Assembly (NCBI GenBank): GCA_014379205.1
Contig: JACMME010000166.1
Span: 1-39,144, forward strand
Source: Gemmatimonadaceae bacterium
GTDB lineage: Bacteria > Gemmatimonadota > Gemmatimonadetes > Gemmatimonadales > Gemmatimonadaceae
Reading direction: 5' to 3'
DNA length: 39,144 nucleotides
The position numbers and the translations under genes were made by a program. This document shows positions 2,658 to 32,388 of the stretch, piece after piece (the stretch's first letter is position 1; each line of letters begins with the position of its first letter). Below the pieces are notes generated by a model. It searched no databases, had not been told where the DNA came from, and was given only the letters and a program-made list of their open reading frames with translations.

Positions 2658-4709
2658 ATGAGTGAGACGGAGTCCGGTGTCCGGCGGGACGCTGGTTCCG
2701 TATACGAGGCTCGCGACCACCGAGTGGTTCGCGGGCCTTCTCGCATCAACCCTCCGCCGTCGACGCTGGAGCGGATTCGTACCCTGGTCGTGGACGAGCA
2801 CGATGATATCGCCCGCCTCGTAGCCGCGAGAATCGCCGCTCTCATTCGCGAAAAAGAGGCGGCTGGCGACCGCGCCGTCCTCGGTCTGGCTACGGGTTCC
2901 ACGCCCGTGGGCGTGTATAGGGAGCTGATCCGTATGCATCGCACGGAAGGTCTCAGCTTCCAGGATGTGGTGACGTTCAATCTGGATGAGTACCACCCGA
3001 TGTCACCCGAGAGCATCCACTCGTATCACCGCTTCATGTGGGAGAATCTATTCTCGCACGTGAACATCGATCCCGACAACGTGCACATCCCTCGCGGCGA
3101 CGCCGATAGGGACACGATCGACCTGGTGACCCTCCGGTACGAGGAGGCGATCCGTCAGGCGGGCGGAATAGATCTCCAGATCCTCGGCATCGGAAAGACG
3201 GGTCACATTGGATTCAATGAGCCCGGATCCGGGGCGGATAGCAGGACGAGGCTGGTGCATCTCGATGTTGTTACAAGGCGAGACGCCGCGGCCGATTTCT
3301 TCGGCGAGGACAATGTGCCGCGCGAGGCAGTAACCATGGGAGTGGCGACCATCCTCGAAGCGCGAGAGATCGTGATTCTCGCCACGGGCGAGCACAAGGC
3401 GAGAATCGTGAAGCGCGCCGTTGAGGGAGAGATCGACCTGGAAGCCGCGGCGACATTCCTCCAGCGCCACCCCAATACGACCTTCTATGTCGACCGTCCC
3501 GCCGCAGCGGAGCTTACGCGCATTGCAACACCGTGGCTTCTGGACGAAGTGGAATGGACGCCGGATCTCGTAACGCGCGCGGTGGTGTGGCTCGCAGGGC
3601 GGACGGACAAGGCTATCCTCAAACTCACCCCCCGCGACTACGCCGAAAACCAGCTCTCGTCTCTCGTGGCGCGATTCGGCGCGGCCGGAGACGTCAATGG
3701 GACTGTCTTCAACGTTTTGGGGAGCAAGATTCGTGGCAAGTCGAAGCTTCCACATAACAGGAAGATCATCTGCTTCTCTCCCCATCCTGATGATGACGTC
3801 ATCTCAATGGGAGGGATTCTTCATAAGCTGGTTGGCAATAAAAACGATATCACCGTTGCGTACATGACAAGCGGCAACATCGCCGTTTTTGACCACGAGG
3901 TACGGCGGTACGCGGACTTCATGGAGCGCATGGCACGCGATCAGCACATCGGCGAAGGGGAGACACCGCACTTCGCACGTTCGGTAAACGAGTTCCTCGA
4001 CCGCAAGCAACCGGGCGACGTGGACATTCCAGAAGTGCAGGACATAAAGCGAATCATCCGCGAAGCGGAAGCGGTGAGTGGAATAGCGACTCTCGGTCTT
4101 GGACCGGAGCGCGCGCGATTTCTGAATCTTCCGTTCTACCAGACTGGAAAGGTGCGCAAGGATCCTGTTAGTGCCGCTGACGTAGCGATAGTCCGGAATC
4201 TGCTGAAAGAGATCATGCCCGACCTGATCTTTGTAGCGGGAGATTTGTCCGACCCTCATGGCACGCACAGGATGTGCAAGGAAGCGATCGACAGAGCGCT
4301 GGGGAACCGGGAATCGGGAATCGGCAATCGGGAATCGAGGATCTTAAGCGTCGAGGATCAGAATCAAGACATTGTGGAGACCGATTCCCGATTCCCGGTT
4401 CCCGATTCGCGTCATCCCACTGCCCATCCCCTACCGCCTACTCCCGAGGTCTGGCTATACCGCGGCGCCTGGCAGGAGTGGCCCGTTACAGAAGCGACTT
4501 ATCTCGTGCCTCTCTCGCAGGAGGAACTGCGTCTCAAGATCCAGGCGATATTCAAGCATCAATCGCAAAAGGATTCTGCGCCCTTTCCGGGGCAGGACGA
4601 TCGTGAGTTCTGGCAGCGGGTGGAAGAGCGAAACAAGGGTACGGCGGCACAGCTCGACCGGCTCGGCCTGGCTGAGTACTTCGCCATGGAGGCGTACGTC
4701 GTTGAGTGA
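2658..4709 (+). CDS. Bifunctional-looking NagB (glucosamine-6-phosphate deaminase) and PIG-L/LmbE deacetylase fusion, with an in-frame heptamer-repeat insertion
   Basis: 683 residues in two domains. Residues about 35-310 are NagB-like: FNLDEYHP at 107-114 carries the catalytic aspartate region, and GIGKTGHIGFNEPGSG at 177-192 is the sugar-phosphate loop. Residues about 365-640 are PIG-L/LmbE zinc deacetylase-like: PHPDDD at 376-380 and DPHGTHR at 532-538 are the metal and active-site motifs. Fusions of this kind are known in Bacteroidota and relatives. NagB makes fructose-6-phosphate and ammonia from glucosamine-6-phosphate; the PIG-L part may deacetylate the N-acetyl precursor (inference). 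Residues about 549-596 are encoded by 7-bp tandem repeats and break the PIG-L domain between DRAL and VWLYRGAWQEW. No clear ribosome site precedes the ATG, so coupling to the Fe-S carrier 5 bp upstream is likely. Confidence 0.85.
   Translation: MSETESGVRRDAGSVYEARDHRVVRGPSRINPPPSTLERIRTLVVDEHDDIARLVAARIAALIREKEAAGDRAVLGLATGSTPVGVYRELIRMHRTEGLSFQDVVTFNLDEYHPMSPESIHSYHRFMWENLFSHVNIDPDNVHIPRGDADRDTIDLVTLRYEEAIRQAGGIDLQILGIGKTGHIGFNEPGSGADSRTRLVHLDVVTRRDAAADFFGEDNVPREAVTMGVATILEAREIVILATGEHKARIVKRAVEGEIDLEAAATFLQRHPNTTFYVDRPAAAELTRIATPWLLDEVEWTPDLVTRAVVWLAGRTDKAILKLTPRDYAENQLSSLVARFGAAGDVNGTVFNVLGSKIRGKSKLPHNRKIICFSPHPDDDVISMGGILHKLVGNKNDITVAYMTSGNIAVFDHEVRRYADFMERMARDQHIGEGETPHFARSVNEFLDRKQPGDVDIPEVQDIKRIIREAEAVSGIATLGLGPERARFLNLPFYQTGKVRKDPVSAADVAIVRNLLKEIMPDLIFVAGDLSDPHGTHRMCKEAIDRALGNRESGIGNRESRILSVEDQNQDIVETDSRFPVPDSRHPTAHPLPPTPEVWLYRGAWQEWPVTEATYLVPLSQEELRLKIQAIFKHQSQKDSAPFPGQDDREFWQRVEERNKGTAAQLDRLGLAEYFAMEAYVVE
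4302..4445. repeat. Heptamer repeat array pair inside a coding region (word GGGAATC)
   Basis: Left arm 4302-4343 is six tandem 7-mers: GGGAACC, GGGAATC twice, GGCAATC, GGGAATC, then a degenerate copy. Right arm about 4383-4411 has the reverse complement (GATTCCC twice, GGTTCCC, a degenerate copy), followed to about 4445 by a weaker C-rich 7-bp series. The arms can pair into a long hairpin. The left arm begins exactly at the codon for residue 549 of the NagB-PIG-L protein, and three 7-mers equal seven codons, so the frame is kept. The same word occurs in arrays at 7271 and 32278. Confidence 0.9.
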
Positions 4710-7218: not shown

Positions 7219-7220
7219 TC

Positions 7221-7344
7221 AGGAACCAGGAACCAGGAACCAGGAACCAGGAACCAGGAACCAGAGAACAGCGAATCGGGAATCGGGAATGGGGAATCGA
7301 AGTAAATAGTGCACCCTAGTTCCTGGTTCCAGGTTCCAGGTGCC
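7221..7344. repeat. Inverted heptamer arrays between convergent genes (words AGGAACC and GGGAATC)
   Basis: The array starts two bases after the kinase stop. Six perfect copies of AGGAACC fill 7221-7262. A second word, GGGAATC with variants, fills 7271-7298. The right arm at 7317-7344 is four copies of the complementary word (TGGTTCC and variants). The first and last arms can pair over about 28 bp, which would make a bidirectional transcription terminator or mRNA 3'-end hairpin for the convergent kinase and symporter genes. No ordinary GC-rich hairpin with a U-tract is present in this gap. Confidence 0.9.
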
Positions 7345-32261: not shown

Positions 32262-32277
32262 GATGCTCCCACCCCTC

Positions 32278-32388
32278 GGGAATCGGGAATCGGGAATCGG
32301 GACTCTGCCCTTCCGATACCGAGATCCCCGCAAGCGGCGGAATTCCGGGGGGTGTCCCACTACCCATCCCCCATCCCCCACTCCCCAA
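32278..32388. repeat. Heptamer arrays (words GGGAATC and CATCCCC) between actD and actE
   Basis: Left series 32278-32305: GGGAATC three times and GGGACTC. Right series 32358-32385: CACTACC, CATCCCC twice, CACTCCC, up to the actD stop at 32389-32391. The two words are not each other's complement. The right series is the reverse complement of the array at 39109-39133: 25 bp are identical (32363-32387). These lie in the 127-bp gap that precedes the actE start. Confidence 0.85.

Follow-up and report, generated by a model that had tools for sequence, protein, structure and literature searches.

Positions 4302-4445 of the window (the whole 39,144-nt stretch analysed here) probably belong to a class of inverted heptamer-array pairs found throughout the genome, here present in frame in a surface loop that tolerates changes of length; the NagB/PIG-L enzyme around it is otherwise intact. 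On this reading, the arrays would be made at the DNA level and genic copies would mostly be selected out. The initial annotation, which reported the array pair in this gene, picked out a real feature and is broadly correct. The genome carrying the window (G000; 4.1 Mb, 339 contigs) comes from a soil bacterium of the Gemmatimonadaceae. It is a fragmented draft, and its closest named relatives are metagenome assemblies from this family; it is compared below with G033 (OFX_bin.8) and G080 (OF_bin.40), two species of the sister genus (g34), and all three are metagenome assemblies.

The host gene (2658..4709, + strand) is intact and encodes a 683-aa fusion protein of the PRK02122/NF002557 family; a family-model search matches NF002557 to residues 35-681 with 887 bits, and a Pfam search finds both PF01182 and PF02585. 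The motifs HPDDD (residues 376-380) and HGTH (534-537) are invariant in 35 homologues, and the catalytic motifs are intact on either side of the insert. Values of dN/dS are ~0.12 for G000/G033 and ~0.07 for G033/G080, whose NagB/PIG-L proteins have ~92% of residues in common; these low ratios, calculated from sequence comparison, indicate that the gene is conserved and constrained as a coding sequence. The insert had been described as splitting the PIG-L domain. The Pfam PIG-L match stops at residue 547, which puts the insert at the edge of that domain model; it does lie well inside the full-length NF002557 match.

The left array (4302..4337, + strand) is built on the word GGGAATC and reads GGGAACC, GGGAATC, GGGAATC, GGCAATC, GGGAATC and a final G, with one GGGAACC and one GGCAATC variant. 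It is followed by a 43-nt spacer (4338..4380), no second copy of which was found in the G000 genome, and by the right array (4381..4408, - strand), the reverse complement of the left. Positions 4302-4324 and 4381-4403 form a perfect 23-bp inverted repeat in which the variant unit GGGAACC is present in both arms. Direct reading of 4409..4445 reveals a C-rich tail with degenerate 7-nt periodicity, and weak (~80%) tail-like matches occur at other arrays. The arrays of the proposed ~48-codon pair are real, but the 48 codons include spacer and tail, and the last ~35 nt (4409-4445) are this tail rather than GGGAATC. Homologue alignment and an AlphaFold2 model together define an extra, variable loop of 47 codons (549-595; 4302..4442, + strand) that ends at the invariant Pro596.

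The ORF from ATG-2658 reads through the insert, and the first base of the left array is, in line with the initial annotation, also that of codon 549. No frameshift occurs anywhere (translation GNRESGIGNRES...DSRFPVPDSR), seven codons spanning three heptamer words. GGGAATC reads as the cyclic peptide GNRESGI and its complement as DSRFPIP, in agreement with the GNRES-type repeat and complement predicted earlier; as 7 and 3 are coprime, the same cyclic peptide is read from the array in any frame, and the GGGAATC array holds no stop on either strand. Folded as RNA, the pair has a predicted energy of -59.2 kcal/mol (z -6.8), which none of 200 shuffles equalled; z values run from -5.4 to -8.0 for arrays in NagB/PIG-L of three species, Tgt and KdsA. 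The window contains nine period-7 arrays, compared with two in 60 Markov copies of it.

The insert occupies the loop between the post-HGTH helix and the PEVWLYRGAW strand, which is 6-38 aa long in 79 named Gemmatimonadota homologues (commonest 10-12) and carries no array in most of them. In G000 it is 48 aa, a net gain of ~36 residues. Loop residues are unrelated in every homologue and the site is a length-variable loop, so that the precise gap of ~48 residues expected from the initial annotation does not appear in the alignment; nor do any of the 79 homologues have a non-repeat segment of equal length there. In the AlphaFold2 model, which is of moderate quality overall (mean pLDDT 69), residues 550-593 have pLDDT <50 (25-32 within the blocks of the insert) and lie between helix 536-552 and strand 597-601. 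The insert is thus additional loop sequence, predicted to be disordered, in an enzyme under constraint, rather than a clean 48-residue gap, and the proposal of a loop tolerated by the protein fits; the translated peptide is probably a neutral disordered loop.

The array pair belongs to an abundant class. The first 368 kb of G000 contain 109 period-7 arrays and none of periods 5, 6 or 8-11, and the pattern GAAN4GAAN4GAAN4GAA has 311 matches against 1 for a reversed control. The survey covered 736 kb of the 4.1-Mb genome, mostly in stretches chosen for holding arrays; the total of ~770 period-7 arrays was estimated from 17 arrays in a less biased 91-kb sample. More than 10 words are used in G000, including GGGAATC, CTGCGAA, CAGGAAC, GGATTGC, GGTGCCC, ACTGCGT and TGGGGGA. 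Most arrays form inverted pairs 40-150 bp apart, with the purine-rich arm 5' in 64 of 68 pairs from three genomes (43 of 46 in G000 alone). Spacers of G000 pairs that share one word are unrelated to each other, which gives no support to the single mobile element first envisaged. Across Gemmatimonadaceae the trait is patchy and the word vocabulary varies by genus; two family genomes, G126 and G130, have many GAAGNNN-word arrays, which the reversed control pattern matches as well. Long heptamer arrays stand at the ends of several G000 contigs (L080 1-111, L082 9-97, L084 15363-15484); assembly therefore probably breaks at arrays, and the longest of them would be missed.

Arrays are found inside genes, as the initial annotation had suggested, but rarely. 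Of the 188 arrays in the 736 kb surveyed (90% coding), 154 lie between genes, most others overlap gene ends, and seven are truly internal. The genes concerned encode NagB/PIG-L, Tgt, KdsA and a DUF4175 protein, the last with a single array; Tgt and KdsA supply two further clear insertions. In tgt, a GGGAATC pair lies in frame at L082 18354-18461 (contig C142). In a solved queuine tRNA-ribosyltransferase, the residues aligned to Tgt 6-187 and 224-413 run on without a break (14-195 and 196-384), leaving Tgt residues 188-223 as an exact 36-aa insertion absent from the solved homologue. In kdsA, an in-frame GGGAATC pair at L285 3366-3496 (contig C328) accounts for 57 residues in place of six of the solved homologue (~51 extra aa). 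Genic arrays are exclusively short and degenerate. The depletion from genes, together with the in-frame survivors in loops, points to purifying selection.

The same loops are occupied by other words in related genomes. The NagB/PIG-L loop holds an in-frame CTGCGAA inverted pair in G033 and an in-frame GGATTGC inverted pair in G080. Given these sister-genus pairs, the insertion need not be recent; judged from the sequences, the loop may have been occupied for long even though its present sequence is young. The three genomes form a clade in the protein tree (support 95/90), so one old occupancy with later word replacement and separate arrivals both fit. Heptamers occupy the Tgt loop in five genomes of four genera: G000 has a GGGAATC pair, G080 an AGGGGCC pair, G027 a GGGAACC-type pair, and G033 and G004 single arrays of AGGAACG and GATTCCC, respectively. 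With G027 and G004 placed in other parts of the tree, repeated acquisition of Tgt loop arrays is likely there. All array-bearing NagB/PIG-L and Tgt copies seen are in frame.

Array positions are also shared more widely between the two sister-genus genomes. G033 and G080 have six co-occupied array sites, five with different words; the excess of shared sites is moderate and partly affected by the choice of stretches (p ~0.002-0.02, with the two pre-chosen loops left out and an approximate denominator). Array sites of G000 are mostly unoccupied in G033 and G080, with no shared excess for G033 (p 0.77) and a weak one for G080 (p 0.06). The sequences within a site are replaced quickly, and the site itself appears to persist. 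One 6.9-kb contig of G080 (C186) is 99% identical to G033 (L106 9680-16609), compared with ~83% for the rest of G080, indicating mis-binning or recent transfer.

To account for these patterns, we propose that a DNA-level process favouring 7-nt units and hairpins makes and rewrites the arrays. Slippage and copying during replication could be the source, and some elements may be copied whole between sites. Selection would remove nearly all genic copies, and those that remain would be found where genes end or, with the frame kept, in loops such as those of NagB/PIG-L, Tgt and KdsA. This mode of array making, like any benefit of the arrays, is something we infer. Several other mechanisms were tried and set aside. 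Copying from arm to arm received no support: shuffled partners match true pairs in shared rare units and in the longest stretch shared, and among pairs of the same word the two arms of a pair resemble each other no more closely than they resemble arms of other pairs. Mobilisation of the RAYT/REP type was rejected, as G000 has no PF01797; this Y1/RAYT transposase family had no match in G000, G080 or most array-rich genomes, while control genomes matched. Selection of words that are stop-free in all six frames was not convincing (20 of 24 words, vs 70% of shuffled words), and extension of the palindrome into its flanks is seen at a few sites only.

Movement of a MITE- or RPE-like palindromic element into the gene by a transposase, with different words as different element families, is possible but clearly less probable than the DNA-level origin proposed above. 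Whole-element dispersal does explain part of the class: in the sister genus, AGGAGTC elements of G080 and G033 are dispersed palindromes of ~127 bp with homologous spacers at many sites, and they have the conserved terminal repeats and internal sequence of MITEs. Clean filled and empty sites also distinguish G033 from G080 (for example, G033 C112 6107-6439 corresponds to adjacent bases in G080), and Rickettsia palindromic elements (RPEs) are known to insert in frame (PMC10969869). The MITE-type features are, however, absent from the G000 GGGAATC pairs, whose spacers are unrelated even for one word and, in the window, without another copy. No obvious target duplication was seen by eye at the filled/empty G033/G080 junctions examined, and the Y1/RAYT transposase is missing from the genomes listed above. 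A different account keeps the hairpin sites long-lived and lets a trans-acting, word-specific "word rewriter", templated or recombination-driven, replace the word genome-wide in each species; we think this unlikely. If it were true, the in-frame NagB/PIG-L and Tgt loops would be sites at which to follow word replacement at codon resolution.

It is similarly improbable that the hairpin acts in the mRNA, as a translation pause or processing site kept by selection, with the protein loop as a side effect. The predicted hairpins are very stable in all the genic cases folded, pairing is kept while sequence changes, and the site is kept while the word changes; yet any inverted array pair will fold, most homologues have no array in the NagB/PIG-L loop, and Tgt of G033 and G004 has one arm only. 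A phase-variable contingency locus, in which gain or loss of one 7-nt unit would shift the frame and turn the enzyme off, is very unlikely. The array lies within an ORF and its unit is not a multiple of three, as in known phase-variable tracts, but the copies seen in NagB/PIG-L and Tgt are without exception in frame, the hosts are housekeeping enzymes (Tgt, KdsA) and genic arrays are all short and degenerate; Rehm et al. also argue against phase variation in Xanthomonas (PMC4692102). To an artefact of assembly or binning we give hardly any credence. The key array-bearing genomes are of draft quality, arrays terminate several contigs and one G080 contig is nearly identical to G033, but three separate assemblies have different sequences in this one loop, always in frame, and the same word class is reported from finished Xanthomonas genomes (PMC4692102).

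Heptamer arrays are seen in several phyla. The closest known counterparts of those in G000 are the GGGAATC inverted repeats of Xanthomonas and, for behaviour, the RPEs. REP/BIME palindromes with RAYT are short, intergenic and present in many copies; G000 lacks a RAYT-type transposase and its arms are heptamer arrays. On the features tested, the G000 arrays belong neither to REP/RAYT nor to the RPEs. The latter are ~100-150-bp hairpins found in frame in housekeeping genes and tolerated by the protein (PMC10969869). G000 likewise has palindromic inserts in frame inside protein-coding genes, but RPEs are homologous copies with a conserved internal sequence or peptide, whereas the GGGAATC pairs share the heptamer word only, and spacer and length vary by site.

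In Xanthomonas, Rehm et al. (2015, PMC4692102) describe quadruplex-forming GGGAATC repeats of at least two tandem units, mostly intergenic with a minority in ORFs, with 70-75 close convergent inverted pairs per genome and the same gene pairs occupied across species by varying sequence; the literature on this class leaves origin and role open. Like this Xanthomonas/Nostoc GGGNATC class, G000 has at least two tandem GGGAATC-type units and close convergent inverted pairs that are mainly intergenic. It belongs to another phylum and uses a broader set of words, many without G-tracts; as words such as CTGCGAA and GGATTGC have no G-tracts of three, quadruplexes are not the common feature of the arrays here. 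In what was read of that paper, neither in-frame insertions in enzyme families of solved structure nor replacement of the word at a single codon site is described. Two other systems are more distant. The TAACTGA heptamers of Beggiatoaceae occur genome-wide with few in ORFs and, unlike the inverted pairs of G000, are mostly direct, of one word and in one orientation upstream of starts, with one inverted case (PMC4679880). Borg tandem repeats lie in ORFs, encode disordered protein segments and evolve rapidly, but are perfect direct repeats of archaeal extrachromosomal elements rather than inverted heptamer pairs (PMC9879509).

The present case is one from outside Rickettsia in which palindromic repeats have entered housekeeping enzymes in frame time and again; empty homologues are aligned, and structures of the enzyme families are solved. 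The more interesting facts are the like insertions in two more conserved enzymes (Tgt, KdsA) and the different words in the same loops of related species. With the site fixed by the reading frame, arrays in the NagB/PIG-L and Tgt loops can be watched as they are gained, lost and rewritten.

Other elements combine words or enclose further structure. Window positions 7220-7341 form a single element with both CAGGAAC and GGGAATC words, which starts 2 nt beyond the stop codon of a gene for a BadF-type ATPase; in G033 and G080 an AGGGGTC pair fills the orthologous gap. The window interval that separates a cytochrome c gene from actD (32276-32380) has a GGGAATC array and a TGGGGGA-type array, and the matching G080 gap has a GGATTGC pair. 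Some sister-genus arrays flank terminator-like hairpins: in G033, CTGCGAA pairs surround several copies of AAAACCCTCGGGAAGCTAC...GTAGCTTCCCGAGGGTTTT (L102 15041-15177, L104 15306-15422, L105 3778-3911). In the same genome, AGGAGTC pairs surround a 76-bp double hairpin with TCATCTGATGAG at its centre (L095, L099, L105; three copies >90% alike). At L092 7964-8142 (C184), also in G033, the two arms of a further, perfect inverted repeat, gcgtgagctacgt...acgtagctcacgc, exactly flank an AGGGGTC pair, which looks as though it had entered a hairpin at its apex.
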